The notes beneath the pieces are model-generated. The model did not search any database and had not been told where the DNA came from. It saw only the letters and a list, made by a program, of their open reading frames with translations. 64,000 bases of DNA, taken from assembly GCA_015709595.1 (NCBI GenBank), contig CP054178.1, positions 2,361,205 to 2,425,204 of the forward strand, read 5' to 3'. The stretch's first letter is position 1. Each line of letters begins with the position of its first letter. Origin of the DNA: Phycisphaeraceae bacterium (GTDB taxonomy: Bacteria > Planctomycetota > Phycisphaerae > Phycisphaerales > SM1A02). Below are positions 1,968-19,711 of the stretch, piece after piece. A program made the position numbers and the translations under genes.

Positions 1968-3713
1968 TTGTTGAACATGAATCGCCCGGGGCCGCGCCAT
2001 TCCGTACCGCCCGGCGGCATCGTTCACACGTACCAGAAGTACGACCCGGTGTCGTTTCCGCCGCCCTCGCACCCGGGCGGGCCGGACGTGGTTTCGCCTC
2101 TCATGGAGCAGATGCTCTGGTACGGCTCGCGGCGGCCGCTGACGGATGAGGATCTGGCCCGGGCCGTGCCCATCGATCCCAGTCAGATCGCCGGGCTGGG
2201 GCCGAGCATCGACGGACTCATCGAACTGCTGCGTCAGCGGAAGGCGAAGATTCTCGCCACGTACGAGACGGAGACCGTCCTGCGCCGCGCCGCCCGGTGC
2301 TACCGCGAACTCGGTCTGCGCATGAAGCCGCCGGAGAAACTGGCCAGGCGGTTCCGCTCGGCGTTTCTCGAGGAGCAGCCCCGCGACCTCGAGCGGCTGT
2401 GGTACGCCATGGATGATGAGCAGTCGCGCTTCGCACGCGACCTCGTCCACCTGAATGAACGTCTGGGCGAGAAGATGCAGGTGGATGAGCTGGCGTCGAA
2501 GTACGAGTTCACCGGCCGCACGGCGCTGACGATCGAAGAGGCCGTCGCCATCAAGGAGGAACTGGAGACCATCGACAAGCTCCTTCAGCAGCTGGAGGAA
2601 GCGAAGAAGAACGCTCGCATCGGTCTGATCGACATGGAGGCGCTGTCGAATTACGCCGAGCCGGGCGACCTGGCCGGGCTCAACGAACTGCGGGAGCGCA
2701 TCGCCGAGTACCTGCGTCAGATGGCCGAAATGCAGGGACTGGAGCGCGGAGCGCAGGGGTACACGCTCACGCCCAAGGCGTATCGAACATTCCAGGGGCG
2801 GCTGCTGGAGCGGCTGTTCAGTGATCTCCAGGCGGCCCGATCCGGGCGCCACGTCGGACCGGTCGCCGGCGAGGGAGCGGTCGAGATTCCCCGCACCAAG
2901 CCCTACGAGTTCGGCGACTCCGTCGCCAACATGGACATTCCGCAGACTCTCATCAACGCCATGATCCGGCGCGGGGCCGGACGGGGAAACGTGCCGGCGG
3001 ACCGTTTCGCCCTTCGCTCCGACGACATCGAGGTTCACCTGACGCGCAACAGCCCCAGGTGCGCCACCTCGGTGCTGCTGGACATGAGCGGTTCCATGCG
3101 TCACGACGGGCAGTACATCAACGCCAAGCGCATGGCCCTGGCGCTGGATGGGCTGATCCGTCGCGAGTACCCCGGCGACTTCCTGCAGTTCATCGAGATG
3201 TACACCTTCGCCCGCCCGGTGCATGTGTCGCAGGTGATCGACCTGCTGCCCCGTCCTGTCACGGTGCGCAACTCCGTGGTGCGCCTGCGCGTGGACATGA
3301 GCCGGGACGATGTGCTGGAGATGCAGATTCCGCCGCACTTCACCAACATCCAGCGGGCGTTGCAGCTGGCGCGGCAGTTCCTTTCGGCGCAGGACACGCC
3401 CAATCGCCAGGTTGTGCTGATCACGGACGGGCTGCCCACGGCGCACTTCGAAGGAGAGATGCTCTATCTGCTCTATCCGCCCGACCCGCGCACGGAGGAA
3501 GCCACGCTGCGCGAGGGTCTGCTCTGCGCCCGCGAAGGCATCACCATCAACATTTTCCTGCTGCCCAACTGGTGGCAGTCGGAGGAGGACGTGCAGTTCG
3601 CGCACCGGCTGGCTGAGCAGACGGGCGGGCGCGTCTTCTTCACCGCGGGGCGCGACCTCGACCGCTTCGTCGTCTGGGACTACGTGAGCATGAAGCGGTC
3701 GATCATCGGGTGA
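1968..3713 (+). CDS. VWA-domain protein, partner of the upstream AAA+ ATPase
   Basis: About 580 residues with a long helical N-terminal half rich in charged helices and a C-terminal von Willebrand A domain. The MIDAS motif DMSGSMRH begins near residue 372, and ITDGLPTAH follows later in the fold. No signal peptide or membrane segment is seen, so it is probably cytoplasmic. It resembles the ChlD/CoxE-like VWA subunits that pair with ChlI/MoxR ATPases. The start is uncertain: TTG at 1968 has a G-run 4-9 nt upstream, while ATG at 1977 is the more usual codon. Confidence 0.8.
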   Translation: MLNMNRPGPRHSVPPGGIVHTYQKYDPVSFPPPSHPGGPDVVSPLMEQMLWYGSRRPLTDEDLARAVPIDPSQIAGLGPSIDGLIELLRQRKAKILATYETETVLRRAARCYRELGLRMKPPEKLARRFRSAFLEEQPRDLERLWYAMDDEQSRFARDLVHLNERLGEKMQVDELASKYEFTGRTALTIEEAVAIKEELETIDKLLQQLEEAKKNARIGLIDMEALSNYAEPGDLAGLNELRERIAEYLRQMAEMQGLERGAQGYTLTPKAYRTFQGRLLERLFSDLQAARSGRHVGPVAGEGAVEIPRTKPYEFGDSVANMDIPQTLINAMIRRGAGRGNVPADRFALRSDDIEVHLTRNSPRCATSVLLDMSGSMRHDGQYINAKRMALALDGLIRREYPGDFLQFIEMYTFARPVHVSQVIDLLPRPVTVRNSVVRLRVDMSRDDVLEMQIPPHFTNIQRALQLARQFLSAQDTPNRQVVLITDGLPTAHFEGEMLYLLYPPDPRTEEATLREGLLCAREGITINIFLLPNWWQSEEDVQFAHRLAEQTGGRVFFTAGRDLDRFVVWDYVSMKRSIIG

Positions 3714-4726: not shown

Positions 4727-4809
4727 CGGTGAAAGACCTTTCCGGTCTTGTGGTGCGCGCCCTCTGTCAGCGTCTGGAAACGGACGATGTTCGACCGGGA
4801 GAACCCACG

Positions 4810-6537
4810 ATGAACGACATCCGCTCGATCCTCAGGATTGCCGCCGGCCGTCTGCACTTCTCGGCCTATCTGGTGTGGCTCCACCAGGCGGCGGCGGGGG
4901 CCGCGGCGCTGGCGCTGCTGCTGATTGTCGTGAGCAAGTTGACCCCCGCGGCCCGGGTGCCGTGGAGTTGGGTGGCCCCCGCGCTGGCGCTGACGGCGGG
5001 ATTGGCGGCGCTGGTGCTCTGGTGGCGTCGCCGTCAGAACGAAGTTCAGGTGGCTATCGCCGTGGATCAGCGACTGGAGCTGCGCGAGAAGCTCTCGACC
5101 GCGCTGCAGATCGCCGGACGCGAGGACGCCTTCGCCAGGGCCGCGGTGGAGGACGCCGTATCGGTGGCCCGCGACGCGCGCACGCGCGAGCAGGTGCGGC
5201 GTCGGTTTCCCGTGGAACCCCCGCGTCGCTGGTGGCTGGCGCCGTCGATCGCCCTGGTCGCCGTTCTGGCCGCGCTGTTCATCCCGCAGGGTGACCTGTT
5301 CGCCCGTTCTCCGCAGCGGGAGCCGGCGGCGCAGCCGATCCCCGTGGAAGTGCAGACGACGCTGGCTTCGGCGGCGGAGATGCTCAAGCAGAACGAGGCG
5401 CTGGGGGACGAACTCAAGGACGTGCTGGACCAGCTGCGCGTGGATCGTCTGGACCCCACCGCGATGAAGACGCCCGAGGGCGCCAGGCGCGAGGCGCTCA
5501 AGAAGCTGACGGACGTGACGGATCGGCTCGAGGAGATCGTCAAGGGCGAGAAAGGGAAGACCGCCGAGGCGCTCTCCAGCGCGCTGAGCAAGCTCAAGAC
5601 CAGCGAGCAGGATGGTCTGGCGTCGGAACTGACGAAGGCCATGAAGAGCGGCGACTTCCAGGCCGCCAAGGAAGCCATCGAGAAACTGCAGCAGATGGCC
5701 GAGAACGGCGAGATGTCGCCGGAGCAGAAGGAGCAGTTGGCGAAAGCGCTGGATGACCTGTCGAAGCAGCTCGCCAAGATGGCCGAGGATCGCAAGGCCC
5801 TGGAGGACGCGCTCAGGCAGGCGGGCATGGACCCCAACCTGGCTCAGAACCCCCAGCAGCTTCAGCAGCAGATCCAGAACAACCAGAACCTCAGCCAGCA
5901 GCAGAAGCAGCAGCTTCAGCAGATGGCCCAGGCGCAGCAGGCGGCCAGCCAGATGTGCCAGGGCATGGCCGGCGCGATGGGGCAGATGGCCCAGGGCATG
6001 CAGTCCGGCAACGGGCAGCAGAGCAGCCGGGGCGCCGGACAGATGGCGCAGATGCTCTCCGACGCCGAGAACCTGCGGCAGATGATGAAGGAGGCCCAGG
6101 CGATGGCCAACCGGATCGCCGGTCAGTGCCAGGGCTTGGGACAGGGACTCGGACAGGGTATGGGGCAGGGCGGCATGGGTCAGAACCCCGGACAGGGCGC
6201 GGGCGGCGAAGCACCGCTGGCCAAGACGCCGACCAGCACCAGGATCGAGAAGATCGACAACAAGGACAACAACGCCGACATCATCGCCAGCACCATGTTC
6301 GATGGGCCGATCGTCAAGGGTGAGTCCACCATTCAGTTCCGCCAGGCGGCGCTCTCCAACGCCGAGAGCTACGCCGACGGCGTGAAGGATGAGCAGATTC
6401 CCCGCAAGTATCACGAGGCGCTGCAGCGGTACTTCGGCGAGCTGCGCGAGAAGGCCAGGCGCGCCAGCCCGCCCGCCGAGGGCGGGAGCCAGCGCGATGG
6501 GGCCGCCGGCAATGCCGGCAGCGGGTCGGGTTCGTGA
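4810..6537 (+). CDS. Gln-rich coiled-coil membrane protein (DUF4175-like)
   Basis: 575 residues from the ATG at 4810. Two membrane segments lie near residues 28-45 and 54-71, followed by a conserved-looking VDQRLELREKLSTAL stretch and a third hydrophobic segment near 142-156. The rest is long amphipathic helices and a Gln/Met/Gly-rich low-complexity tract (about residues 335-465) with many QQ and GQG runs. The layout of N-terminal membrane helices plus a Gln-rich tail resembles the long DUF4175/TIGR02302 proteins, but this is a pattern match only. The ABC solute-binding protein gene starts 23 nt downstream. Confidence 0.6.
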   Translation: MNDIRSILRIAAGRLHFSAYLVWLHQAAAGAAALALLLIVVSKLTPAARVPWSWVAPALALTAGLAALVLWWRRRQNEVQVAIAVDQRLELREKLSTALQIAGREDAFARAAVEDAVSVARDARTREQVRRRFPVEPPRRWWLAPSIALVAVLAALFIPQGDLFARSPQREPAAQPIPVEVQTTLASAAEMLKQNEALGDELKDVLDQLRVDRLDPTAMKTPEGARREALKKLTDVTDRLEEIVKGEKGKTAEALSSALSKLKTSEQDGLASELTKAMKSGDFQAAKEAIEKLQQMAENGEMSPEQKEQLAKALDDLSKQLAKMAEDRKALEDALRQAGMDPNLAQNPQQLQQQIQNNQNLSQQQKQQLQQMAQAQQAASQMCQGMAGAMGQMAQGMQSGNGQQSSRGAGQMAQMLSDAENLRQMMKEAQAMANRIAGQCQGLGQGLGQGMGQGGMGQNPGQGAGGEAPLAKTPTSTRIEKIDNKDNNADIIASTMFDGPIVKGESTIQFRQAALSNAESYADGVKDEQIPRKYHEALQRYFGELREKARRASPPAEGGSQRDGAAGNAGSGSGS

Positions 6538-6560: not shown

Positions 6561-7670
6561 ATGCCGCGTGAGCGCCGAGGTTCCGGGTGTGGATTCGTCG
6601 CCGCGGCGCGTCGGGCGGCGTCCGTCGTCCTTCAGTTGGCCATCGGCGGGGCGGTGGCCGGGGGCGTTACATCCTGCGGCGGAAACGACGGCGCTTCGCG
6701 CCTCGTGCTGTACGTCTCGGCGGATGATTACGTGGCCCGCGAGGTGGTTCGCGCCTTCGAGGAGCAGACAGGCATCCGCGTCGACCTCGTCGGCGACACC
6801 GAGGTCAACAAGAACACGGGGCTGGCCAACCGCATCCGGGCCGAGGCGTCGTCGCCCCGGGCGGACGTGTTCTGGTCGTCCGAGTGCTTCATGATGATTC
6901 AGCTCGCGGAGGAAGGACTGCTGGAACCCTTCTCACACGCGGACGTGGAATCGTGGCCGGTCAACCTGCGCGATGCGGCGCGGCGCTGGCACGGCTTTGC
7001 GCCGCGGGCGCGCGTGATCGTCTATTCCACCGAACGAGTCTCGCGGGAAGAGGCGCCCAGGACGTGGATTCACCTGACGCGGGAGCGCTGGCGGGGGCGC
7101 GTGGTCATGGCTGATCCGCGTTTCGGCACCACGCGAGGCCACCTGGGCGCGCTCAAGGTGTTCTTCGACGGGCAGCTGCCCGGCGGATACGAGGCGTTCC
7201 TCGGCAACCTGGCGTACAACCAGGTGCGGCTGCTCACCTCCGGCAACGCCGGGGTGGTGCAGGCCGTGGCGCGGGGCGAGGCCGACGTGGGCATGACCGA
7301 CACCGACGACGTGTGGGCCGCCCAGCGCAACGGCGCCCAGGTGGATCTGGTCTACCCCTGGCACGGCGAGGAGAACGAGCGCGGCGCCGGAACGCTGGTG
7401 ATTCCCAACACCGTGGCGCTCATTCGGGGAGCAAAGAACCATGAACAGGCGGGCGAGTTCATCCGCTTCCTCCTCAGCGAGCGCGTCGAGCGCATGCTCG
7501 TCGAGTCCGACTCGCGCAACATTCCGATCCGGGAATCGGTGATGAAGGACTATCCGCAGTACGCCGTTCCCGAACCGCTGCGGATCGACCTGAAGCGCGT
7601 CGCCGAGGCCATGGACGGTGCGGTGGAGGCGGCGATGCGCATTCTGGGTTCCGGCGCGGGCGAGTCGTAG
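6561..7670 (+). CDS. Fe(III)-type ABC transporter solute-binding lipoprotein
   Basis: 369 residues with a basic N-terminus, a hydrophobic stretch and a lipobox-like VTSC at Cys39. The mature part matches the FbpA/AfuA class of extracellular binding proteins: LVLYVSADDYVAREVVRAFE near the start, then the domain-II pattern ending in SDSRNIPIR. This class binds ferric iron or other small ligands. The permease gene starts 1 nt after its stop codon. No ABC ATPase is seen in the window, so the pump would need an ATPase encoded elsewhere. Confidence 0.8.
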   Translation: MPRERRGSGCGFVAAARRAASVVLQLAIGGAVAGGVTSCGGNDGASRLVLYVSADDYVAREVVRAFEEQTGIRVDLVGDTEVNKNTGLANRIRAEASSPRADVFWSSECFMMIQLAEEGLLEPFSHADVESWPVNLRDAARRWHGFAPRARVIVYSTERVSREEAPRTWIHLTRERWRGRVVMADPRFGTTRGHLGALKVFFDGQLPGGYEAFLGNLAYNQVRLLTSGNAGVVQAVARGEADVGMTDTDDVWAAQRNGAQVDLVYPWHGEENERGAGTLVIPNTVALIRGAKNHEQAGEFIRFLLSERVERMLVESDSRNIPIRESVMKDYPQYAVPEPLRIDLKRVAEAMDGAVEAAMRILGSGAGES

Positions 7671-7671
7671 C

Positions 7672-10260
7672 ATGCGCGGCGGGGCTTGGATCATCGTGTT
7701 CGCGATGCTGGCGCTGATCGGCGCGGCGGCGGCGTGGCCCGCGGCGACGATGATCCATCTGGCGCTGGACACCCATCGCGCGGGAAGCGGCGGCGCGATG
7801 CACGGCGGCGCGTGGTCCGTCGTGTCCGTCGGGCTGGGGTGGGCTCTGGCCGCGGCGGGAGGCGCGGTGCTGGTCGGGTGGCTGCCCGGCGCGGCGCTGG
7901 CGCGGGCGTCGGCCCACGCACATGGCGGCATCGGCGTGCTCGCGGGCGCCATGCTGGTTCTGCCGATCCTCCTGCCCCCGCACGTTCACTTCTGGCTGTG
8001 GTGGCAGATGTGGGGGCCCGACGTGGCCTGGTTCGACTGGATTCGCCGCCTGGGCTTGGAGGTCTACGCACGACATGCGACGCTGTGGCTGGGTCTGGTT
8101 TCGTGGTCATGGCCCATCGGGGCGGCGTGCATCGCGGCGGCGCTTCGGGGGGCGTCGCCGTCCGTCCGTGATCACCTGCGGCTGGATGGCGCGGGCGTGC
8201 TGCGTCGATTGGCGTTCGACGCGCGGGCCGCATGGCGGGGCCTTCTCTGCGCGGTGCTGATCGTGTCGCTCTTCACGTTCAACAACACCACCAGCTTCGA
8301 CCTGGCGCAGGTGCGCACACTGGGGTACGAGCTGCGGGCGATGGACTCGACCGGGGCTTCGCCCGGAGCGATCGTGCGTTCCGCCTGGCCCGGCTACGCG
8401 GCGGCGATCGGGTGCGTCGCGGCGCTGGCGTGGATGGCGCGGCGACGCGGTGCGGATGAGAACGAGGCCCGGGAATCAGTCGCCGGTCGAGGACGATCCG
8501 CGACGCGCATCATCGCCATGCCATTCGTGATGCTCGCGTTTCTGCCCATCGTCGTGCTGCTGCTGTGGCGCGGGGGTGAGCTGATGGGCGGGGCCTCACT
8601 GCGTGGGTTCGAGCGACCTGTCATCAATACGGCTGGATTCGCCATACTCGGCGGCGCGGGGGCGGTGATCATCGCCTTGGGCGTGGGGGTGGCGGCATCA
8701 TCCGGCCCGCTTGTGAGACAACCGGCATCCGACGGCCGACAGCCGTCAGCCGACCGTCGAGAACCGACGACTCGCGCGCGACCACGCCGCCCACGGCTCG
8801 GTTGGCCGGGCCGCGTCGCACTGGGCGTGACCCTGCTGCTCTTCCTGGCGGCGTCGATTCCCGCCACGGCGGCGGCGGTGGCGTTCATCCAGTCGTTCAA
8901 TCGCGGGTGGGCGCAGGGGATCATCTATGGCACGCCGGTCGTGATGGTGCTGATGCTGCTGTCACGTTTCGGCTTCGTGGGCGCGATCGCGGGCCTGTGG
9001 GCGGCGTCATCCGAGGACGCCGATCTGCGCGCGATGCGCCGAATCGACGGCGCGGACACGTGGCGCGGCCTGTGGCTGGCGGGAAGGCCTCGCTGGATCG
9101 CGGCGGGCGCGGTGACGCTGTTCGTGACGTCGGCGCTCTCGATCGGCGAGGTGGAGGCGGTGTGGCGCGTGCAGCCGCCGGGGTATCCCACGGTGGCGCC
9201 CATCCTGCTCAACAACATGCACTACCAGCGGGATGACGTGGTGCTGCTGAGCATTGTCGTGCTGCTGGTCGTCGGGGGGGCGGCCGCCCTGGTGGCGGGT
9301 CGCGTGATCGGCGTGGGGCTGAGGCGGGCGGCCCCGTCCTGGGCGCTCCTGATCGTCTGTGCGGCGACGACGCTCGGCGGCTGCCGGGCCGATCCGGCGG
9401 AATCGAAGCCCATCAGGCCCGTGTTCGTGTTCGGCGAGCCGGGGGAGATTCTCGGGCAGTTCAACTATCCGCGGGCCATCGCGGCGGACCAGCGCCGGGG
9501 CGTGGTGTACATCATCGACCGCTCCGGGCGCGTGCAGCGATTCGGCGCGGATGGAACCCCCCAGAAGCAGTGGTACATGCCGGAGTACGACAACGGCTAC
9601 CCCACCGGGGTGACGGTGGCTCCGGACGGGCGTGTCTTCGTGGCGGATACGCACGAGTACCGCGTCTCCATCTTCGACCCGGAGGGCAACCTGCTGGGCG
9701 CCTTCGGCGAGTACGGCAGCGGACCGGGACAGTTCACCTTCCTCTGCGACATCGCCTTCGGGCGCGACGGACGGATCTACGTCGCCGAGTTCGGAGGCAA
9801 TGACCGCATTCAGGTGTTTGACGCGAACGGTGGATTCCTCTTCCAGTTCGGCTCCTTCGGCGCCGGACCGGGCGAGTTCAACCGACCCCAGTCGATGTGC
9901 TTCAACGCCGACGGAACGGAACTGTGGGTCGCGGACGCGTGCAACCACCGGCTGCAGGTGTTCGACCCCGAGGGGCGATTCCTGCGCACGGTGGGGAAAG
10001 TCGGAACCGGGCCGGGCGAATTCCGTTATCCTTACGGCGTGACGGTGCTGTCGGACGGTTCGCTGCTGGTGTGCGAGTTCGGAAACAGCCGACTGCAGGT
10101 GCTGGATGCCGCGGGGGCATCGAAGGCGCTGCTGGGCGAAAGCGGTTCCGGCGATGGGCAGCTGCTGGCGCCGTGGGGGGCGGCGGAGATACACGGTCGG
10201 TTGTTCGTGCTCGATTCCCGCAACAACCGCGTGCAGGTGATCGAAAGGCCTCAGGGGTAG
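7672..10260 (+). CDS. ABC permease fused to a six-repeat NHL beta-propeller
   Basis: An uninterrupted 862-codon frame. Residues 1 to ~555 are a two-half binding-protein-dependent permease of the FbpB type, with multiple membrane helices and EAA-like loops (LRLDGAGVLRRLAFDA and AMRRIDGADTWRGL). Residues ~583-862 hold six NHL repeats, typically GPGEFNRPQSM...VADACNHRLQVFDPEGRFL. Between them, residues ~556-571 read as a lipoprotein signal with the lipobox LGGC (Cys571). In-frame GTG codons at 9304 and 9313 could start the propeller separately, so it may be a true fusion or two nested products. A Pro/Arg-rich loop encoded by heptamer repeats lies at 8722-8770. Confidence 0.75.
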   Translation: MRGGAWIIVFAMLALIGAAAAWPAATMIHLALDTHRAGSGGAMHGGAWSVVSVGLGWALAAAGGAVLVGWLPGAALARASAHAHGGIGVLAGAMLVLPILLPPHVHFWLWWQMWGPDVAWFDWIRRLGLEVYARHATLWLGLVSWSWPIGAACIAAALRGASPSVRDHLRLDGAGVLRRLAFDARAAWRGLLCAVLIVSLFTFNNTTSFDLAQVRTLGYELRAMDSTGASPGAIVRSAWPGYAAAIGCVAALAWMARRRGADENEARESVAGRGRSATRIIAMPFVMLAFLPIVVLLLWRGGELMGGASLRGFERPVINTAGFAILGGAGAVIIALGVGVAASSGPLVRQPASDGRQPSADRREPTTRARPRRPRLGWPGRVALGVTLLLFLAASIPATAAAVAFIQSFNRGWAQGIIYGTPVVMVLMLLSRFGFVGAIAGLWAASSEDADLRAMRRIDGADTWRGLWLAGRPRWIAAGAVTLFVTSALSIGEVEAVWRVQPPGYPTVAPILLNNMHYQRDDVVLLSIVVLLVVGGAAALVAGRVIGVGLRRAAPSWALLIVCAATTLGGCRADPAESKPIRPVFVFGEPGEILGQFNYPRAIAADQRRGVVYIIDRSGRVQRFGADGTPQKQWYMPEYDNGYPTGVTVAPDGRVFVADTHEYRVSIFDPEGNLLGAFGEYGSGPGQFTFLCDIAFGRDGRIYVAEFGGNDRIQVFDANGGFLFQFGSFGAGPGEFNRPQSMCFNADGTELWVADACNHRLQVFDPEGRFLRTVGKVGTGPGEFRYPYGVTVLSDGSLLVCEFGNSRLQVLDAAGASKALLGESGSGDGQLLAPWGAAEIHGRLFVLDSRNNRVQVIERPQG
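8722..8770. repeat. Degenerate heptanucleotide repeat inside the permease gene
   Basis: Seven consecutive 7-mers read CCGGCAT, CCGACGG, CCGACAG, CCGTCAG, CCGACCG, TCGAGAA and CCGACGA, so the consensus is close to CCGACRG. They encode a disordered Pro/Arg/Ser-rich linker between the two permease halves. Total length is a multiple of 7, not of 3, so the repeat is not a protein-level repeat. Confidence 0.6.
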
Positions 10261-10263
10261 CTC

Positions 10264-13260
10264 ATGTTCGAGAACCTCTTCATCCGCTTCGAGCAACCGA
10301 CGTGGCTGGCGCTGTCGGCGCTGGTGCTGCCGATGTACCTGATCGCGCGGACTTCGCTGGGGGGGCTGTCGCCTCTCAAGACGCACGTGACGTTCGCAGT
10401 GCGGGCGATCGTGGTGGTGCTGCTGGCGGCGTCGCTGGCCGAGCCGACGTGGATGAAGAAGGGTGAAGGGCTGACGGTGGTGGTGATGATGGATCGCAGC
10501 CGCTCGGTGCCGCAGTACTTGCGCGACCGGGCGCTCGACTACATGAAGGTCGCCACCACGCTGCAGCGCAGGCCGGAGGATCGACTCGGGATCATCACGA
10601 TCGGCAAGGGAGCCGCGATCAGTTCGCTGCCCCATCGGTTCTCCTCGTTCGACAACTTCACGGACAACCTGGCGAGTGATGAGGCCACCACGCTGGCGGA
10701 GGGGCTTTCGCTGGCGCTGGCCACGGCGCCGCAGGACACGATGATCCGCTTCGTGCTCGTGTCCGACGGCAACGAGACGGACGGCCACGTGCTTGAAGCC
10801 GCCAAGGCCGCCCGGGCCAACGGCATTCCCATCGACGTGCTGCCGCTCACCTACGAGCACGGGCGCGAGGTGATCTTTGATCGGCTGGTGGCGCCGGCTC
10901 GCGTGCGCGAGGGTCAGGTGTCATCGCTTCGCATGGTGCTGCGGGCGCAGTCCGAGGTGACCGGCGTCCTCTCGCTCACCCAGAACGGCCTTCCGGTGGA
11001 TCTGGACCCGGAATCGCCTGGGGCGACGGTGCGGGTGCGTCTGCAGCCGGGGCTCAACTCGCGCAACATTCCGATCCTGTACAACGAGGCGGGGCCGCAG
11101 CAGTTCGAGGCGACGTTCGTTCCCGATGATCCGCAGGCGGACCTGATTGCTGAGAACAACCGCGCCGTGGCGGTGACGTTCGTGGGCGGCGAGGGCCGCG
11201 TGCTGATTCTCGCCGACTCCGAGGCCGACGCCGAGCCACTCGCCGCCGCGCTGCGGGCCAGCGACCTGTCAGTGCGCACCGAGCAGGCGTCGTACCTCGA
11301 CAGCATCGTCACGCTGGGGGGGTACGACGCGGTCATCATGATGGACCAGCACCGGCGCGATTACACCACCGAGCAGGACAAGTGGCTGCACGACTACGTG
11401 CATGACCTGGGCGGGGGCCTGCTCGTGCTGGGCGGGCCGCAGGCGTTCGGCAACGGGGGGTGGATCAGTTCGCAGGTGGAAAAGGCGTTGCCGGTGAAGC
11501 TGGACCCGCCCCAGACCATGCAGCGGCAACTGGGCGCGCTGTGCCTCATCATGCACTCGTGCGAGATGCCGCAGGCCAACTTCTGGGGGCAGAAGGTCGC
11601 CATCTCCGCCATCGAGGCGCTCAGCAGCCAGGACTACGTGGGGATTCTTGACTACAACTGGAACGCGGGCGGGGTGGTGTGGGAGTACGGCCCCGCGCCG
11701 GCGGGCGACAAGAGCCGCCCCATCGCCGCCGCCCAGAAGATGCCCGTCGGCGATATGCCGGACTTCCAGTCCGCCATGCAACTGGCGTACGACGGCATGG
11801 CGCCGCTCAACGCCAACAAGCACTGCATCATCATTTCGGACGGCGACCCCAGTCCGCCCAGTCAGGCGCTGCTGGACCAGTTCGTGGCCGCCAAGATCAC
11901 CGTGACCACGGTGCTGATCGCGGGTCACGGCGGTCCCACCACGATGCAGACCATCGCCAACGTGACGGGCGGCAACTTCTACAACGTCACCAATCCGCGC
12001 AATCTGCCGGAGATCTTCATTTCCGAGTCGCGCATCGTCGCCCGGTCGCTCACCGTCGAGGGTGACGAGTACATTCCCACCCTGCAGAATCCGCTGGTCG
12101 AACCGATCCGCGGCTTCCGCGATCTGCCCTCGGTGGACGGCTATGTGCTCACCGCGCCCAAGGAAGGGCTGGCCGAGATCGCATTCGTATCCGACAAGCA
12201 TGGCGATCCGATCTACGCCTCGTGGAACTACGGCATCGGCAAGGCCATTGCATTCACGCCCGACCTGACGGGGCGGTGGGGGGGCCGCTGGGTCGGGTGG
12301 GACCGGTTCAAGGGCTTCTGGGATCAATCTGTGCGCTGGGCGATGCGGCCCGTCAGCCCGTCCAACATGACGGTCAACACGCGGCTGGAAGGCGAGCGCG
12401 CCATCATCGAGGTCGAGGCCTTCGACAAGGACTCCAACTTTGAGAACTTCCTCACCAGCAGCGCCGCGGTGCTGGGTCCGGACGGTACGGCGCCTCTCGC
12501 TCTGCAGCAGGTGGGTCCGGGACGGTACCGGGGCGAGTTCGACGCGGCGGAGGCCGGCGCCTACCTCGTCAACATGCACTTCCGCAAGGGAGGCGAGATC
12601 GTCGGCAACATGCAGGCGGCGGTGAACGTGCCCTACTCGCGCGAGTTCCGGGCCATCCGGGATGACTCCGCCCGCCTGGTGCAGGTGGCGGAAATGACCG
12701 GCGGACGTGTGCTGCGCGACCAGCCGCAACTGGCCGACCTGTGGAACCGCGACGGGCTGGAGCCGCGCCGCAGCCACAAGCCCATCTGGGATCTGCTGGC
12801 CATCATCGCCGCCTCGATCTTCCTGGTCGATGTAGCGGGAAGGCGGCTGGCCATCGGCATCGCGGAAGTGCGTCAGACGCTGCGCAAGATGCTCGGCAGG
12901 CGGGGCGACGTGGCCGAGGACACCGTGGCCGCGTGGAAGCGCGCCCGCGAGCAGGTGGCCCATCGCAAGCAGCCCGGCGGTCCGACCGAACCGGCGGCTG
13001 CGGCGCGAGACATTCCGGTGGAGGATCGCACCGTCAAGTTCGAAGCCAGCGAACAGGATCGCGGCAAGGCGATCGACGTGGGCGCAGACGTGGCGGCGTC
13101 AGGTGTTCCGTCCGATCGACCCGCGGCGCCCAGGCGCCGTCCGGTGGCGGAGAAGCCCGATCCGACGGATGAAGGCGACTTCACCTCGCGCCTGCTGGCG
13201 GCCAAACGTCGCGCCCGTGAGCAGCAGAAGGGTGAGAGCGATGGAGGCGTCCATGGCTGA
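10264..13260 (+). CDS. Large VWA membrane protein with glutamine-amidotransferase-like domain
   Basis: 998 residues. Two membrane segments near residues 15-32 and 40-58 precede a VWA domain with MIDAS-like DRSRS (residues 77-81). A class-I-glutamine-amidotransferase-like region (GGLLVLGGPQAFGNGGW) follows, then a second VWA-like stretch around IIISDGDPSPP, a membrane helix near residue 860 and a charged tail. This is the architecture of the BatA/YegL-related VWA proteins found beside MoxR in Planctomycetota. It lies 3 nt after the NHL fusion gene and overlaps the MoxR gene. It probably acts as a membrane-anchored adaptor for the MoxR ATPase. Confidence 0.75.
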   Translation: MFENLFIRFEQPTWLALSALVLPMYLIARTSLGGLSPLKTHVTFAVRAIVVVLLAASLAEPTWMKKGEGLTVVVMMDRSRSVPQYLRDRALDYMKVATTLQRRPEDRLGIITIGKGAAISSLPHRFSSFDNFTDNLASDEATTLAEGLSLALATAPQDTMIRFVLVSDGNETDGHVLEAAKAARANGIPIDVLPLTYEHGREVIFDRLVAPARVREGQVSSLRMVLRAQSEVTGVLSLTQNGLPVDLDPESPGATVRVRLQPGLNSRNIPILYNEAGPQQFEATFVPDDPQADLIAENNRAVAVTFVGGEGRVLILADSEADAEPLAAALRASDLSVRTEQASYLDSIVTLGGYDAVIMMDQHRRDYTTEQDKWLHDYVHDLGGGLLVLGGPQAFGNGGWISSQVEKALPVKLDPPQTMQRQLGALCLIMHSCEMPQANFWGQKVAISAIEALSSQDYVGILDYNWNAGGVVWEYGPAPAGDKSRPIAAAQKMPVGDMPDFQSAMQLAYDGMAPLNANKHCIIISDGDPSPPSQALLDQFVAAKITVTTVLIAGHGGPTTMQTIANVTGGNFYNVTNPRNLPEIFISESRIVARSLTVEGDEYIPTLQNPLVEPIRGFRDLPSVDGYVLTAPKEGLAEIAFVSDKHGDPIYASWNYGIGKAIAFTPDLTGRWGGRWVGWDRFKGFWDQSVRWAMRPVSPSNMTVNTRLEGERAIIEVEAFDKDSNFENFLTSSAAVLGPDGTAPLALQQVGPGRYRGEFDAAEAGAYLVNMHFRKGGEIVGNMQAAVNVPYSREFRAIRDDSARLVQVAEMTGGRVLRDQPQLADLWNRDGLEPRRSHKPIWDLLAIIAASIFLVDVAGRRLAIGIAEVRQTLRKMLGRRGDVAEDTVAAWKRAREQVAHRKQPGGPTEPAAAARDIPVEDRTVKFEASEQDRGKAIDVGADVAASGVPSDRPAAPRRRPVAEKPDPTDEGDFTSRLLAAKRRAREQQKGESDGGVHG

Positions 13261-14371
13261 GATCGCCACGCGCCCACAGGCCGGCCATCCCCGATCCGGG
13301 TCAGCCGTGCCGACCATGGTGAATCTTCCCACGCTGGACGCCTCGCTTGACGACGTGGCGGCGGTGCGCTCCAACTGCGCCGCCTTCCGCGACCTGTATG
13401 CGCGACTGAAGCAGGCCATCGCCACCGTCATCGTGGGGCAGGAAGAGGTCGTGGACCTGGTGCTCACCGCACTCTTCGCGGATGGTCACGTGCTGCTCGA
13501 AGGCGTGCCGGGGCTGGGCAAGACGCTGCTCATCCGCACGCTGGGCGAGGCGCTCACGCTCCGGTTCAGCCGCATCCAGTTCACGCCCGACCTGATGCCC
13601 GCCGACATCACGGGCACGAGCATCGTGCTGGAGGATGAGTCCACCGGACGGCGTGAGTTCCAGTTCCGACCGGGTCCCATCTTCAGCCAGTTGCTGCTGG
13701 CGGACGAGATCAACCGCGCCACGCCCAAGAGCCAGGCGGCTCTGCTCGAAGCCATGCAGGAACGATCGGTCACCATCGCGGGCCGCACGCACCCGCTGGA
13801 GCGGCCGTTCTTCGTGATGGCCACGCAGAACCCCATCGAGCAGGAGGGCACCTACCCGCTGCCCGAGGCGCAGCTCGACCGCTTCCTCTTCAAGGTGGTG
13901 GTGCCCTCCACCACGCGGCCGGAGATGAACGAGATTCTCCGCCGCACCACGACCACGCACGCCGCCCACGCCGCGCCCGTGCTGGACGGACCGCACATTT
14001 TGCAGGCGCAGCGGCTGGCCCGTCGGGTGGTGGCGGCTCCGCACGTGCAGGACTACGCCATCCGGCTGGTGCTGGCGACGCATCCGGGCGGGACGTACGC
14101 GCATCCGGACCTGTCGCGCGTGATTCGCGTGGGCGTCAGCCCCCGGGGGGCGCAGGCGCTCATCGCCGGCGCCAAGGTGCGGGCCTTGATCGACGGGCGA
14201 TACGCCATCGCCTTCCGCGATGTGCAGGCCGTGGCCCACGCCGCCCTGCGGCACCGCATCATCCGGAGTTTCGAGGCCGAGGCGGAAGGGCTGACCACGG
14301 ACGACATCGTGGATCGGTTGATCGACCTGGTTCCCGTCGAACCTGTCATCGCGACAAGCCAACAGTCATGA
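13253..14371 (+). CDS. MoxR-family AAA+ ATPase
   Basis: 372 residues with Walker A GVPGLGKT (84-91), Walker B LLLADE (147-152), the MoxR signature INRATPKSQAALLEAMQE, sensor region MATQNPIEQEGTYPLPEAQL and a C-terminal lid. MoxR ATPases act as chaperones that activate or assemble complexes together with VWA proteins. The start at 13253 is favoured by GGAGG at 13243-13247; an ATG at 13241 is an alternative. It overlaps the upstream VWA gene by 8 nt and the DUF58 gene by 4 nt. Confidence 0.9.
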   Translation: MAEIATRPQAGHPRSGSAVPTMVNLPTLDASLDDVAAVRSNCAAFRDLYARLKQAIATVIVGQEEVVDLVLTALFADGHVLLEGVPGLGKTLLIRTLGEALTLRFSRIQFTPDLMPADITGTSIVLEDESTGRREFQFRPGPIFSQLLLADEINRATPKSQAALLEAMQERSVTIAGRTHPLERPFFVMATQNPIEQEGTYPLPEAQLDRFLFKVVVPSTTRPEMNEILRRTTTTHAAHAAPVLDGPHILQAQRLARRVVAAPHVQDYAIRLVLATHPGGTYAHPDLSRVIRVGVSPRGAQALIAGAKVRALIDGRYAIAFRDVQAVAHAALRHRIIRSFEAEAEGLTTDDIVDRLIDLVPVEPVIATSQQS

Positions 14372-15297
14372 CCACCTTCTCTCCAGCCGCCGCAACCCGT
14401 CCGCGTCGCGTGGACGACCTGATCGACAGCCGCCTCATGGCGCGGCTGGATCAGCTGGATGTCGTCTCGCGCAAGATTTTCGCCGGCAAACTGCAGGGAG
14501 AGCGGCGCAGCAAGAAGCGCGGGGTGAGCGTGGAGTTCGCGGATTACCGCCACTACACCCACGGCGATGACTTGCGCTTCGTGGACTGGAACATCTACGC
14601 CCGGCTCGACCGGCTCTTCCTCAAGATTTTCCTGGAGGAGGAGGATCTGTCTCTCATCCTCGCCATCGACGGCAGCGCCTCGATGGACTGGGGCAACCCC
14701 AACAAGTTCATCTTCTGCCAGCGGCTGGCCATGGCCCTGGGCTACATCGGGCTGTGCAATCACAACCGCGTCACGCTCTGCACGTTCTCCGGCGGGGGGC
14801 TGAACCGGCTGCCCAACCTGCGCGGCCGGCGCCGCGTGCAGGAAATGGGAAAGTGGATTCTTGATCAGTCGCCGGGCGGCCCCAGCCGGTTCGACGACTC
14901 GATGAAGACGCTGGCCCTCACCCGTCAGGGCAAGGGTGTCATGGTCATCCTGAGCGACTTCATGTTCAAGGAGGGGTACGAGAAGGGCCTCAAGTTCCTC
15001 GCCGGCGGCGGGTACGACACCTTCGCCCTGCAGGTGCTCAGCCCCGAGGAGATCGACCCAGGCAGGCACGGAATCACGGGCGACCTCCGTCTCACCGACG
15101 TCGAGGATGAGGACGTGGCGGAGGTCACCGTCAGCGCGGCCCTGCTCAAGCGGTACAAGGAAAACCTGGATGCCTATTGCGGCAAACTGCGCGAGTACTG
15201 CGTCCGCCGCAACATGATGCACCTGACCATCGACACGTCCATCGATCTCGACGTGCTGCTGCTGGATTACCTTCGCAAGCGGGGACTGCTGCGATGA
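14368..15297 (+). CDS. DUF58 protein (MoxR-associated VWA-like)
   Basis: 309 residues with the DUF58 core: HGDDLRFVDWNIYARLDRL, then KIFLEEEDLSLILAIDGSAS. DGSAS is a VWA-type metal site, so the protein is probably a VWA-like adaptor in the cytoplasm. It starts with an ATGA overlap with moxR and ends in an ATGA overlap with the next gene, which indicates coupled translation. DUF58 proteins are almost always neighbours of MoxR and BatA-type genes, as here. Confidence 0.88.
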   Translation: MTTFSPAAATRPRRVDDLIDSRLMARLDQLDVVSRKIFAGKLQGERRSKKRGVSVEFADYRHYTHGDDLRFVDWNIYARLDRLFLKIFLEEEDLSLILAIDGSASMDWGNPNKFIFCQRLAMALGYIGLCNHNRVTLCTFSGGGLNRLPNLRGRRRVQEMGKWILDQSPGGPSRFDDSMKTLALTRQGKGVMVILSDFMFKEGYEKGLKFLAGGGYDTFALQVLSPEEIDPGRHGITGDLRLTDVEDEDVAEVTVSAALLKRYKENLDAYCGKLREYCVRRNMMHLTIDTSIDLDVLLLDYLRKRGLLR

Positions 15298-17324
15298 GCG
15301 GGATCAACCTGATCGATCCGGTGGCGGGGGGTGTGCTGGCGGCGTCGGTCATTCCGCCGCTGATCCTGCTGTACTTCCTGAAGCTCCGCCGGCGGCAGCG
15401 GGTCATCTCCTGCACGCTGCTGTGGAAGAAGTCCATCGAGGATCTGCGCGCCAACGCGCCCTTCCAGAAACTGCGCAAGAGTCTGCTGCTCTTCCTGCAA
15501 CTCCTCGCCCTGGCGCTGCTGGCTCTGGCGATCATGCAGCCGCAGCTCAAGTCGGGTCGGCGCACGGGCGGGCGGGTCATCATCATGATCGACAACTCCG
15601 CCTCCATGTCGGCCACCGACCTGGAAGGCGGGCGCAGCCGACTCGATGACGCCAAGGACAAGGCCAGGCGCCTGGTCGAGGCCATGCAGTCCGGGGGCCT
15701 CTTCGGCGGGACGGCGGATGAGTGCATGGTCATCGCCTTCAACGAGAAGGCGGAGGTGCTCTGCAACTTCACCACCGCGCGTCAGCCCCTGCTGCGGGCC
15801 ATCGACGCCGTGCGGCCCACCGACCGGCGCACCGCCATCGATGACGCCCTCAAGCTGGCCCGCGCCCACACCACCATCACCGACCCGGACAACGAGCAGC
15901 TCGTGATGGAAGGCAAGCCCGGCACGATCGAACTGTTCTCCGACGGGGCCATCGCCGACTTCCAGCGACAGGTGCGTCGGGGTGAAACACTCAACTTCTA
16001 TCCCATCGGCGCGCCCGACGCCGACAACGTGGCCTTCTCCAGCGTGGCGGCGGAGAGGCCATACGACAGTCCCGCCGCCATCCAGGTCTTCGCCGGGCTG
16101 GTGAACTTCAACCAGACGGGCGTTGAATGCACGGTGCAGATGTCCGTCAACGGCGACAGCAACGTGGGATGGATCCGCGTGGTTCGCATGGAGGCCGCCA
16201 CGATCGACGCCTCCACGGGTCAGCTCGTGCCGGGGCGCAGCAACGTGGTTTTCGGCCCCTTCGAGCAGCCCGCGGCGGCGGTCATCGAAGTCGCCAACCT
16301 GCGGCAGGACGACCTGGCGGTGGACAATACCGCGTGGCTGGTCACGCCTCCCGCCAAGGCCTTGCGCACCGCGGTCGTGGCGCCGCAGTTGTCGCTCACG
16401 CACGACGCCTTCGCGGGCATGAAACTGCTGCAGACCAGCGACACCCTTTCCGGCGAACAGTTCGATGCGCTCGCAGCGGGTGGAAGCGGCGGAAGTGGTG
16501 GAGGCGGGGGGGCGGAACGCTACGACGTCATCATCATCGACCAGCACGAACCCAGATCCCTTCCGCCCGGCCGCTATATCAACCTCGGCTCGCGTCTGCC
16601 GATTGAGGCGCTCGCGATGGGAGAGCCGGTCGAGGGCTTCGAGATCGCAGACTGGACCCGTGAGCATCCCATCATGCAGCACGTCAACCTCGACAACCTG
16701 CTGATCCGGTCGCTCCGCCCGCTGGTCTCCGCCGACCGGGTGCGCGTGCTGGTCGAGGCCGGCAGCGGCACGCTCTCCGCGCCGGCCATTGTGGAGTACA
16801 CCGCCGGCGGCGTCCAGATCATCCACCTCACCTTCCGGCCCGTGGAGACCAACTGGTTCTGGCACCCGAGCTGGGTGATGTTCATGGTCAACACCATCGA
16901 GTACCTGGGCTTGAGCGGGTCGGCGACGACCGAGCGCACGCTCTCGCCCGGCGATCCCATCATCACGCGGCTGCCCGCCGGCGCGACGGAGGTCCGCCTG
17001 CGAACGCCTGACGGCGCGTCGCACGGGCTGTCTCCGGACGACTTGAACGAGGTTTCCTGGGGACGCACCGATCGAGCCGGCTTCTACGACATCACGTGGA
17101 AAGCGGGCGGCGCGGACGGCAGCCGCCGCTTCGCCGTCAATCTGCTGGATGAGCCGGAGTCGCACATCACGCCGCGAACCGAACTGAAGTGGGGCGACGA
17201 GAAGGTCACGGGCGAGGGAGCCGCCGGCGGGCTGCAGACGCCGCTCTGGCCCTTCGCGATCGGCGTGTGTCTGCTGGTGCTGCTGCTGGAATGGTGGGTC
17301 TACCACCGGCGCGGGTACCGCTGA
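15294..17324 (+). CDS. BatA-like membrane VWA protein
   Basis: 676 residues. The N-terminal BatA-type region has membrane helices near 13-29 and 63-81, followed by a VWA domain with DNSAS at residues 100-104. A middle beta-rich part contains a glycine linker (GGSGGSGGGGG, around 393-404) and a second alpha/beta domain. The last helix (about 648-666) leaves a short basic cytoplasmic tail (YHRRGYR). It is the last gene of the MoxR run and ends 5 nt before the convergent feoB. Confidence 0.82.
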   Translation: MSGINLIDPVAGGVLAASVIPPLILLYFLKLRRRQRVISCTLLWKKSIEDLRANAPFQKLRKSLLLFLQLLALALLALAIMQPQLKSGRRTGGRVIIMIDNSASMSATDLEGGRSRLDDAKDKARRLVEAMQSGGLFGGTADECMVIAFNEKAEVLCNFTTARQPLLRAIDAVRPTDRRTAIDDALKLARAHTTITDPDNEQLVMEGKPGTIELFSDGAIADFQRQVRRGETLNFYPIGAPDADNVAFSSVAAERPYDSPAAIQVFAGLVNFNQTGVECTVQMSVNGDSNVGWIRVVRMEAATIDASTGQLVPGRSNVVFGPFEQPAAAVIEVANLRQDDLAVDNTAWLVTPPAKALRTAVVAPQLSLTHDAFAGMKLLQTSDTLSGEQFDALAAGGSGGSGGGGGAERYDVIIIDQHEPRSLPPGRYINLGSRLPIEALAMGEPVEGFEIADWTREHPIMQHVNLDNLLIRSLRPLVSADRVRVLVEAGSGTLSAPAIVEYTAGGVQIIHLTFRPVETNWFWHPSWVMFMVNTIEYLGLSGSATTERTLSPGDPIITRLPAGATEVRLRTPDGASHGLSPDDLNEVSWGRTDRAGFYDITWKAGGADGSRRFAVNLLDEPESHITPRTELKWGDEKVTGEGAAGGLQTPLWPFAIGVCLLVLLLEWWVYHRRGYR

Positions 17325-17329
17325 CGGCG

Positions 17330-19711
17330 TCACGATGCGATGACCAGGCGCAGGGTCTGGTACGTCAGCACCGCGCCCACCCACGCCAGGGCCGTCATGT
17401 AGCAGAAGGCGAAGATGGCCCACTTCCATGCGGATTCGCGCGCGATGACCGCCACCGTGCTGCCGCACTGCAGGCAGAGGGCGAAGAAGACCATGATCGC
17501 CGCCGCCACCGGGATGGTGAACACCGGTTCTCCCGCGCGGGGTCCGCTCTCCCAGCGGGCGTTCCGCATCGCGGCGACGAGCGTGTCGGACTCCTCATCC
17601 ACCTCGCTGCCCAGGTTGTAGATGATTCCCAGCGTTGCGATGATCACTTCGCGCGCCGGAAAACTCGCCAGCACGCCGATGGTGATGCGCCAGTCGAAGC
17701 CCGCGGGCGAGAAGATCGGCTGCACGGTCCGCCCCAGCCGCCCGAGGTAGCTGTGCTCCACGAAGGCGCCTTCCACGCTGTTGGACAGACGCGCGGCCAG
17801 CTCCTCGTCGAAGCGATCATTCGCGTCGGCGTCGTTCCGTTCGACCAGATCCGCCACATCGGCGGCGGGAAGAGCCATCTCCGCCGCCGTCTGGTCTATG
17901 AACCGCTGCGTCGCCGCCTGCTCCACCGATGCGGAGCGGGGGAAGTACACCAGGGCCCAGATGATGATCGTCATGGCGAAGATGATGGTGCCGGCGCGGC
18001 GCAGGAACGCCCCGCCGCGCTCCACCATGCGCCAGAGCACGTCGCGGAGCTGCGGCGTGCGGTAGGGCGGCATCTCCATCACGAAGGGGATGCGCGTGCC
18101 CCTGATGACCCACCGGTTGAGCGCCATGGCCACGGGAATCGCCACCAGCAGCCCCACGAAGTGCATCGCCACCAGCGTGAACCCCGCCCACCACGGTCCG
18201 TAGCGCGGCTCCACGAAGGCGCCGATGAGCAGCACGTAGACCGGCAGGCGGGCCGAGCAGGACATGAGCGGCGCGATGAGGATGGTGACCAGCCGGGCCT
18301 TGGGGTCTTCGATGGTGCGGGTGGCCATCACTCCGGGAATCGCGCAGGCGTAACTGGAGAGCATGGGGACGAAGCTCTTGCCGTTGAGCCCGCACCACGA
18401 GAACATCCGGTCCATCAGAAAGGCCGCCCGGGCCATGTAGCCGGTGTCCTCCAGCAGCGCGATGAAGAAGAACAGAATGAGAATCTGCGGCAGGAAGATG
18501 ACCACCGAACCGACGCCGCCGATGACGCCGTCAGCGACGAGACTGGCCAGCATGGGCGTGGATTCGAGCCAGCCCCCCGCGATCTCCTGCATCCACCCCG
18601 TCAGCGCGTCGATGCCGTCCATCAGCGGTCCGGCGAGCGTGTAGATGGACTGAAAGACGAGTGTCATCAGCCCCACGAAGAAGAGCAGTCCCCAGACGCG
18701 GTGAGTGAGCACGCGGTCGGCGGACTCGCCGCGCGTGGGCTTGCGCTCACCGGGGTGAACGATGACGCCTTCGAGCAGTTCCGCGAGGCGGCCGTAGCGC
18801 AGCATGGCCTCGGCGCTGACGGGATCGAGGCCGTGCTGCTCAAGGTGCGTGCGGGCGCGGGCGATGGCGGCGTCGGCCTTCGACCTGGGCCAGCCCAGCC
18901 GCTCGGGGATGGCGGAGTGGGCGTCGAAAAGCAGACGAAGCAGCTCGACGCGGCTGACGGACGAGGCCTCGTTTCCGCCGAGGTCGTGCCTGATCGCGCG
19001 GTCAAGTTCCCCCACCGCCTGCTCCACCGACGCCGGCCACGGCATGGGGGCGATGCCGGGAGTGGAAGGGTTGTCAGCAGTCAGTTGGCGGTTGAGAGTT
19101 TCGGACGACGCCGCGCTCAGCAGCGCGTGAATCGCGCGCTTGAGTTCCTCGACGCCCTCGCCCCTGGTCGCGGTGATGGGCACGACCGGCACGCCCAGCC
19201 GCTGGGAGAGCAGCCCGGGGTCCACGGCCACGCCCTGCTCGCGGGCGCAGTCCATCATGTTGAGCGCGACCACCTGGGGGATTCCCGTGTCCGCCACCTG
19301 CGAGGCCAGGAACAGGTTGCGCATCAGGTTGGATGCGTCCACCACGCAGACGACCACGTCGGGCCTCGCCGTGCCGGGGATGCGGCCCATCAGCACGTCC
19401 AGCACCACGCGCTCATCCGCGCTGGCGGCGGCCAGCGAGTAGGCGCCCGGCAGGTCGATCACGGCGACCGATGCGTGGTCGCCCAGTTTCAGCGTGCCGA
19501 GTTTCTTCTCGACGGTGACGCCCGGGTAATTGCCCACGCGCTGCCGCGCCCCCGTGAGACGGTTGAAGAGCGTGGTCTTGCCCGTGTTGGGATTGCCGAT
19601 CAGGGCGATCTCGCGCTGACGCTCGGGAGAGCCGTGGCTGGGTGACGAGGCGATCGTGGTGCCGGTCTGGTGCGTCATGGCTCGTTCAGCGACTCGTCTG
19701 CGCCGGATCAC
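17330..19711 (-). CDS. feoB: Ferrous iron transporter FeoB
   Basis: 793 residues. The N-terminal G domain has G1 GNPNTGKT (39-46), G3 DLPG and G4 NMMD, followed by the helical GDI region. The membrane part has two Gate domains (GKSFVPMLSSYACAIPG, APLMSCSARLPVYVLL). FeoB imports Fe2+ through the inner membrane. GTG at 19711 overlaps the feoA stop (GTGA), suggesting coupling; ATG at 19678 is an alternative start nearer the usual N-terminus. A Thr/Ser/Asn linker around residues 205-220 is encoded by degenerate 7-nt repeats. Confidence 0.95.
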   Translation of the reverse strand: MIRRRRVAERAMTHQTGTTIASSPSHGSPERQREIALIGNPNTGKTTLFNRLTGARQRVGNYPGVTVEKKLGTLKLGDHASVAVIDLPGAYSLAAASADERVVLDVLMGRIPGTARPDVVVCVVDASNLMRNLFLASQVADTGIPQVVALNMMDCAREQGVAVDPGLLSQRLGVPVVPITATRGEGVEELKRAIHALLSAASSETLNRQLTADNPSTPGIAPMPWPASVEQAVGELDRAIRHDLGGNEASSVSRVELLRLLFDAHSAIPERLGWPRSKADAAIARARTHLEQHGLDPVSAEAMLRYGRLAELLEGVIVHPGERKPTRGESADRVLTHRVWGLLFFVGLMTLVFQSIYTLAGPLMDGIDALTGWMQEIAGGWLESTPMLASLVADGVIGGVGSVVIFLPQILILFFFIALLEDTGYMARAAFLMDRMFSWCGLNGKSFVPMLSSYACAIPGVMATRTIEDPKARLVTILIAPLMSCSARLPVYVLLIGAFVEPRYGPWWAGFTLVAMHFVGLLVAIPVAMALNRWVIRGTRIPFVMEMPPYRTPQLRDVLWRMVERGGAFLRRAGTIIFAMTIIIWALVYFPRSASVEQAATQRFIDQTAAEMALPAADVADLVERNDADANDRFDEELAARLSNSVEGAFVEHSYLGRLGRTVQPIFSPAGFDWRITIGVLASFPAREVIIATLGIIYNLGSEVDEESDTLVAAMRNARWESGPRAGEPVFTIPVAAAIMVFFALCLQCGSTVAVIARESAWKWAIFAFCYMTALAWVGAVLTYQTLRLVIAS
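19071..19100. repeat. Short 7-nt-periodic repeat inside feoB
   Basis: On the feoB strand the DNA reads in units close to ACCGCCA, ACTGACT, GCTGACA. It encodes part of a nonconserved linker (LNRQLTADNPS) between the FeoB G/GDI region and the membrane part. The periodicity is short and the call is tentative. Confidence 0.35.

Follow-up and report, generated by a model that had tools for sequence, protein, structure and literature searches.

Does an open reading frame that runs from the permease of an ATP-binding cassette (ABC) importer straight into a beta-propeller encode one protein, two proteins, or only a missed stop codon? The question is raised by a gene at positions 7672–10260 of a 64,000-nucleotide stretch of the genome of a Phycisphaeraceae bacterium (assembly GCA_015709595.1, contig CP054178.1, positions 2,361,205–2,425,204 of the forward strand; hereafter the window). 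Comparison with related loci leads us to favor, with a probability of roughly 0.6, the reading that the gene encodes a polyprotein composed of a permease and a propeller lipoprotein, which would be matured at an internal lipobox. In the alignments, the joined protein keeps a predicted lipoprotein signal peptide as its 13th hydrophobic segment, and the lipobox cysteine of this segment is invariant. The parts are known ones; their arrangement, an importer with no ATPase at its locus joined to a lipoprotein through an internal lipobox, is a new variation on them.

The gene is a single stop-free frame of 862 codons, from the ATG at 7672 to the stop codon at 10258–10260, and encodes 862 amino acids; the source genome is a single contig of 3.84 Mb with a completeness of 99.11%. 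On the fused protein, Pfam recognized the propeller alone (NHL repeats, E = 1.2e-31), and an AlphaFold model built on a two-sequence alignment contained 24 strands, forming six four-stranded blades at residues 583–858, with block-mean pLDDT (predicted local distance difference test) values mostly of 75–96. These results bear out the preliminary description of this DNA, made from the sequence alone, according to which the permease frame stays open into an LGGC motif and six NHL repeats. Hydropathy averaged over 38 homologs showed 13 peaks, 12 of them before the junction and the 13th at residue 563. A short basic turn with two arginines (residues 551–552) follows the permease, and the LGGC occupies residues 568–571.

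The relatives were collected in several searches, in which L-numbers denote fetched stretches, G-numbers denote genomes, and ABC+ denotes loci with an ABC ATPase. The first search covered 61 genomes (the source genome and 60 relatives), of which 56 matched, and loci were fetched from 39 of the 55 matching relatives (40 stretches). Permease and propeller lie in one frame in 36 of these 39 and are apart in two (G003, stretch L074, and G022, stretch L061), and in the remaining one the locus ends at contig edges. The first alignment thus held 38 fused rows, namely the window, L034, and the 36 relatives. Wider searches matched 104 of 248 genomes of the class at 1e-40 and 93 of 294 genomes of the phylum; from these, 40 wider loci were picked by choice, not at random, together with 22 short loci (L116–L137). 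The rows L035 (the same record as L061), L118, L129, and L130 (the loci L070, L168, and L072, respectively), and L075 (without a propeller) were dropped. Row L136 duplicates L201; the genome of the latter (G552) is assigned to another class by its kinship code, yet the locus groups with the class of the window on the tree described below. One further genome, G035, apparently carries two copies of the fused gene (contigs C29 and C79), with frames of 781 and about 834–841 amino acids.

The search for the fusion in relatives that had been proposed with the preliminary description was productive: the in-frame open junction recurs in 61 distinct loci (62 rows, counting L136) from several families. 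In 57 of these 61 loci, the permease match in the frame of the propeller spans nearly the whole permease profile. Because 61 distinct loci share the junction, it is not an artefact, and the sequencing error or missed stop that had been feared there is excluded by this recurrence. The occurrence of separate genes in some relatives is what an artefact would have in its favor; against the open junction shared by several families, we regard a missed stop or frameshift in the window as a practically negligible explanation. Rows of the first relative search that were marked with one TGA were dismissed as junction stops, since the fetched loci show the frame crossing both permease and propeller.

Part of the case for the predicted maturation rests on the 13th segment. 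The alignment of the 62 fused rows showed the lipobox cysteine in every row and the preceding glycine in 56 (38 and 33, respectively, of the first 38 rows); in the columns from −17 to −7 relative to the cysteine, identity reached at most 27 of 62. Among the 58 fused rows whose cysteine was located by the script, 55 have an n-region with a net positive charge. The fused protein therefore contains all that a lipoprotein signal consists of, a positive n-region, a hydrophobic core, and a lipobox cysteine, with the signal placed internally instead of at the N-terminus. The same signal with its cysteine is kept where the propeller is encoded separately, in 17 of 17 split rows, 10 of 10 ABC+ rows, and 11 of 11 rows without a permease. 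The internal lipobox is apparently functional.

A stable, uncleaved fusion would explain the same frame differently: the 13th transmembrane segment (TM13) would be a permanent anchor that keeps the propeller attached to the extracytoplasmic side of the permease, like the substrate-binding domains fused to OpuA-type importers. The single frame in 61 distinct loci agrees with such a protein, as does the retention of the fused gene outside its operon in six genomes discussed below. However, a plain 13th helix would not need a cysteine, so that TM13, with a lipobox cysteine in 62 of 62 rows, is unlikely to be a mere anchor; in addition, fission of the gene (L061 and L074) and its repeated fusion have been tolerated. 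We therefore consider a stable fusion unlikely. For the fixed propeller envisaged in the preliminary description, this means that the fusion itself is real and a fixed state possible, but that such a state is the less likely outcome given the invariant cysteine.

In the polyprotein reading, the 12th transmembrane segment would have its end on the cytoplasmic side, from which the positively charged turn and TM13 would lead back into the membrane, and the propeller would be exported. Lgt would then add diacylglycerol to Cys571, and signal peptidase II (LspA) would cut before this residue. The products would be a permease and a membrane-anchored propeller in a fixed 1:1 stoichiometry.

Two products might also be obtained by internal initiation at an in-frame GTG or ATG near the junction. 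In the window, the GTG codons at −26 and −23 from the cysteine would yield a good signal peptide, although the one at −23 (9313) has no Shine-Dalgarno core in front of it. ATG, GTG, and TTG are all lacking from the codons between −40 and −14 in 6 of the 62 fused rows (5 of 61 loci). An ATG or GTG placed after a four-base Shine-Dalgarno core was found in 2 of 62 fused rows versus 9 of 27 split or ABC+ rows, the latter counted over a slightly wider stretch; when one definition was applied to both groups, such starts were present in 4 of 61 fused and 12 of 38 non-fused loci (Fisher p = 0.0016). Moreover, since there is no stop at the junction, a ribosome that completes the permease must continue into the propeller and makes the fused chain. 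Internal start codons were accordingly rejected as a general mechanism, because usable starts are not conserved and those preceded by a Shine-Dalgarno core are rare, and we judge this route quite improbable. The separate lipoprotein that had been proposed to arise from an in-frame GTG is thus disfavored as a general route and possible in the window itself.

Several observations weigh against the polyprotein reading or the evolutionary history proposed for it. A PROSITE-type lipobox rule was satisfied by just 42 of the 58 fused rows with a located cysteine, and 9 of the 16 failures had proline at −2. The AlphaFold model that resolved the propeller was uninformative for the permease, with block-mean pLDDT values of about 24–46 over residues 1–580. 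Two fused loci, L116 and L135, run off the end of their stretch with no more than the final third of the permease profile in view, and two others, L120 and L201, carry the N-terminal half of the permease in another frame, so that a frameshift is possible there. Genome G010 (L062 and L075), with its contig ends, was left unscored. Eleven rows of the tree had no permease by profile and were given no fused or split state; three of them have an ABC ATPase in the stretch, in a place other than between permease and propeller. Furthermore, the tree was built by a quick method with many gappy rows and no approximately unbiased (AU) test, and the ABC+ row L198 sits inside the group of ABC-less loci, on a long branch.

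How the two genes came to be joined can be read from the order of their neighbors. In outgroup planctomycetes, the typical order is a gene for a protein with coiled-coil-like sequence (CC), solute-binding protein (SBP), permease, ABC ATPase, propeller lipoprotein, VWA/GATase, MoxR, DUF58, and BatA, and the ATPase gene lies directly between permease and propeller in seven outgroup loci (L184, L185, L186, L193, L195, L196, and L200). Of the other outgroup arrangements, L197 has the SBP, ABC, and propeller genes with no permease found, L187 has an ABC ATPase upstream with no permease match, and L198 has the order propeller, SBP, permease, ABC. Within the window's group, a motif search of the loci with fused or split genes detected no ATPase, and an ATPase profile likewise failed to match any of 79 rows, although 20 of these rows are stretches shorter than 5 kb. 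In agreement with the preliminary description, all 44 ABC_tran matches of the source genome lie outside the range of the window.

The loci of the window's group show the permease and propeller genes in three arrangements: fused, split but adjacent (15 loci), or separated by several kilobases (L061 and L173). Seven of the 15 adjacent split loci have both genes in the same frame and eight in another, and six of the seven have exactly one intervening stop codon. In L074, the permease stops just after the basic turn (..LIRR), followed through an ATGA overlap by a lipoprotein with an ordinary signal peptide; the split point is exactly the fusion junction. Separate genes in relatives, which had been set down beforehand as a refutation of the fusion, are thus present in some of them, where they appear to mark the evolutionary route and not an error. 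In L061 (oriented), the permease stop and the propeller domain are about 4.6 kb apart (about 7480–12130), and the spacing between the MoxR and DUF58 genes (about 17020–18250) is roughly 1.2 kb longer than in the window.

In six genomes of another family (f4: L047, L050, L051, L052, L053, and L060), the gene is still fused, outside the operon and in another neighborhood. Homologs of the SBP and VWA/GATase genes were found elsewhere in all six, and no ABC ATPase pattern was detected within about 1.5 kb of these SBP genes. The retention of the parts in spite of the scattered operon points to a joint function.

A tree of 99 rows was constructed from the propeller and VWA/GATase sequences; L074 was left off for lack of columns. 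The ABC-less loci formed one group of 83 rows with a support of 99 in the Shimodaira-Hasegawa-like approximate likelihood ratio test (SH-aLRT), including 62 fused rows, 16 split rows, and 4 rows without a permease. The fused and split states require at least six changes on this tree: L061 is a split row nested among fused ones, and L202 is a fused row nested among split ones. Most simply, the fusion would have arisen more than once and been undone at least once. A cleaved polyprotein, whose mature products would hardly differ from those of separate genes, offers the easiest account of such repeated switching; possibly, a tolerated stable fusion is compatible with it as well. The proposed order of events is that the ATPase gene between permease and propeller was lost, and that loss of a stop codon then joined the two genes, more than once. 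The loci would thus form a comparative series, from an importer with its ATPase, through loci in which the ATPase is gone and the genes are adjacent and loci in which one stop is lost and the genes are joined, to loci in which the coupling loops are worn. This series suggests how an ABC importer may become something else.

The absence of an ATPase gene from the locus raises the question of whether the permease still depends on ATP. The window permease alone had no match to Pfam BPD_transp_1 at E up to 10 and, in a phmmer search, none in PDB at E up to 1. With a profile of 12 relatives, the best PDB match was 9j4r_A, an entry named “Iron ABC transporter permease” and matched along most of its length (E = 1e-37), followed by MalG, PotC, and sulfate/molybdate-type permeases; it is through this profile only that the window permease falls within the type I importer fold family (BPD_transp_1). 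Among 12 permeases scanned, BPD_transp_1 matched five (L184, L193, L195, L117, and, below the cut-off, L168) and did not match the window, L034, L061, L164, L174, L186, and, by subtraction, L047.

In type I importers, the EAA loops hold the ATPase. The window permease has no EAA motif ending in I-x-L-P. Among the 41 permeases of the window, the first-search relatives, L034, and L137, the ending [LIVMF]P survives in three first loops and one second loop; the corresponding values are 7/11 and 4/11 in a mostly split clade and 3/7 and 3/7 in a mixed clade. In the source genome, another two-domain permease (a 648-amino acid frame, L210/L213) keeps both motifs, and L208 keeps one. The erosion of the loops in the window and its nearer relatives makes the repurposing of the permease, which the preliminary description had suggested, plausible, and we put the permease of the window's lineage being ATP-free at about even odds.

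Alternatively, the permease may still work as an importer powered by ATP, through a borrowed ATPase whose gene lies elsewhere, just as MsiK/MsmK-type ATPases are shared among importers. Of the 44 ABC_tran matches of the genome, 21 could be compared, and L076, L087, and L081 were the most similar to the operon ATPases of the relatives. L076 (also L204; G000:C1:691318) is an FbpC/UgpC-type ATPase with TOBE_2, and inspection of the open frames by eye showed no adjacent permease. The 648-amino acid two-domain permease (G000:C1:1932619–1933989; L210, L213, and L214), with its intact EAA motifs, has no ABC_tran match nearby and possibly uses a shared ATPase. In addition, another fused clade keeps [LIVMF]P in 10 of 12 first loops and 9 of 12 second loops (12 of its rows were aligned). 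These candidates and the intact motifs of that clade make the supply of an ATPase in trans possible. Against it stand the worn loops of the window and its nearer relatives, beside a permease of the same genome that retains both motifs, and the score of the window permease, which lies below Pfam detection. The loop comparison has weak points of its own: the ABC+ permease L186 likewise has no BPD_transp_1 match, the ABC+ rows, three of which (L196, L198, and L200) align poorly, keep the ending in only 3/7 of the first and 4/7 of the second loops, and a looser EAA pattern sought on both strands is absent from L205, L206, L207, L209, L211, and L212 of the source genome. As the pattern is missing in several ordinary permeases, this control is mixed, and the absence of EAA alone is not proof of decoupling. 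We rate a borrowed ATPase as a serious possibility that falls somewhat short of an even chance.

The fused gene is followed after a 3-base gap by the next operon gene, and the coordinates of its parts and partners are given in Table 1.

Table 1. Parts of the fused gene and conserved operon partners in the window (positions counted from the first letter of the window).
Feature	Position	Strand	Remarks
Permease part, two tandem type I importer domains, 12 hydropathy peaks	7672..9306	+	Residues 1-545; hydropathy, profile of 12 relatives
First EAA (coupling) loop	8167..8247	+	Eroded, without I-x-L-P
Second EAA (coupling) loop	9013..9105	+	Partly eroded, GRPRW where I-x-L-P is expected
In-frame GTG, possible, poorly supported internal start	9313..9315	+	23 codons before the cysteine; without four-base Shine-Dalgarno core
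Predicted internal lipoprotein signal peptide: RR, hydrophobic segment (TM13), LGGC lipobox	9322..9384	+	Cys571 codon 9382-9384
Six-bladed NHL beta-propeller (predicted mature lipoprotein part) and stop codon	9382..10260	+	
CC: hydrophobic N-terminus, coiled-coil-like sequence	4807..6537	+	Sequence character by eye; first conserved operon gene; no Pfam family
SBP, FutA/FbpA/PhnS type	6561..7670	+	Own lipobox VTSC, Cys codon 6675-6677 (hand count)
VWA protein with GATase1-like segment	10264..13260	+	Next operon gene, 3-base gap
MoxR AAA+ ATPase	13103..14371	+	P-loop GVPGLGKT
DUF58 protein	14368..15297	+	
BatA-type VWA protein	15177..17324	+	

The SBP of the window resembles FutA/FbpA (best PDB matches with E of about 1e-21) and, as in importers, its gene adjoins that of the permease. 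It has DTDD at the place where its second-ranked PDB homolog, the FutA-like iron-binding protein 2pt1, has NTYY. Of 63 SBP rows, 32 have TDTDD and 14 a close variant, and 17 gave no match to the pattern, truncated stretches accounting for several of these; the seven ABC+ rows comprised five with TDTDD and two with the variant. With this motif in place of NTYY, the protein probably does not bind Fe(III) in the way that FbpA does. The suggestion that the propeller replaces or modifies the contact with the binding protein found no support: the propeller is an old neighbor of the permease and a separate lipoprotein in other lineages, and an SBP gene is in most cases still a direct neighbor or, in the six f4 genomes examined, is present elsewhere.

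For the window and its nearer relatives, a permease not driven by ATP might act with the SBP as a unit for docking or sensing that serves the VWA/MoxR/DUF58/BatA module. Taken to its full extent, this would mean a widespread polyprotein with a lipoprotein released by signal peptidase II and an ATPase-less importer turned into an ATP-free receptor, in which the SBP signals through a degenerate permease to the periplasmic propeller and VWA/MoxR. We advance this combined scheme tentatively and consider it rather doubtful.

Comparison with known systems showed several partial likenesses. The FbpABC/FutABC iron(III) and PhnSTUV importers share with this locus a FutA/FbpA-like SBP and a two-domain permease like 9j4r_A; unlike them, the locus has no ATPase, its EAA loops are eroded (in the window and nearer relatives), the SBP motif is altered, and the permease carries a C-terminal propeller. 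The closest precedents in design are OpuA and GlnPQ, importers whose permease is joined to an extracytoplasmic substrate-binding domain by a signal-like helix, and the FbcH polyprotein. As in these importers, the present protein bears an extracytoplasmic domain on its permease, whereas the fused part is an NHL propeller and not a binding-protein fold, a separate SBP is kept, and the lipobox is intact. FbcH of Bradyrhizobium is a cytochrome b/c1 polyprotein cut by signal peptidase I. There, too, the frame of a polytopic membrane protein continues into an exported protein that bears a signal peptide of its own; the cutting enzyme and the exported part, signal peptidase I and a cytochrome, differ from the lipobox for signal peptidase II and the propeller considered here. 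As a source for this precedent, the accessible part of PMC12456017 gives only the name “cytochrome b/c1 subunit.”

In the MoxR-vWA beta-propeller ternary systems, MoxR, VWA proteins, and a propeller occur in one cluster, planctomycetes included, and the P-loop of bpMoxR is often, though not always, GXXXTAKS, as stated in the accessible part of PMC7159879. The window differs from the systems as described there, in that its propeller forms a lipoprotein part of its own and its MoxR has the P-loop GVPGLGKT. Pfam detected no propeller in the VWA proteins at 10264–13260, 15177–17324, and 1968–3713, and the MoxR of the window scored 43 bits with the bpMoxR model (cut-off 27) versus 212 bits with AAA_3. 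Membership in these ternary systems was rejected on account of the differing propeller placement and P-loop (PMC7159879, same part). Our searches of open-licence papers returned no description of this fusion or of lipoproteins cut from polytopic proteins.

Whether Lgt and LspA can act on a signal peptide embedded in a polytopic protein is a question for which the fused loci provide a natural test. If cleavage is demonstrated, lipoprotein annotation limited to the N-terminus would be missing a class of such proteins. Beyond the operon, a second frame with NHL repeats (663 amino acids; G000:C1:2436980–2438746, L002–L004) is located about 66 kb downstream of the fused gene.

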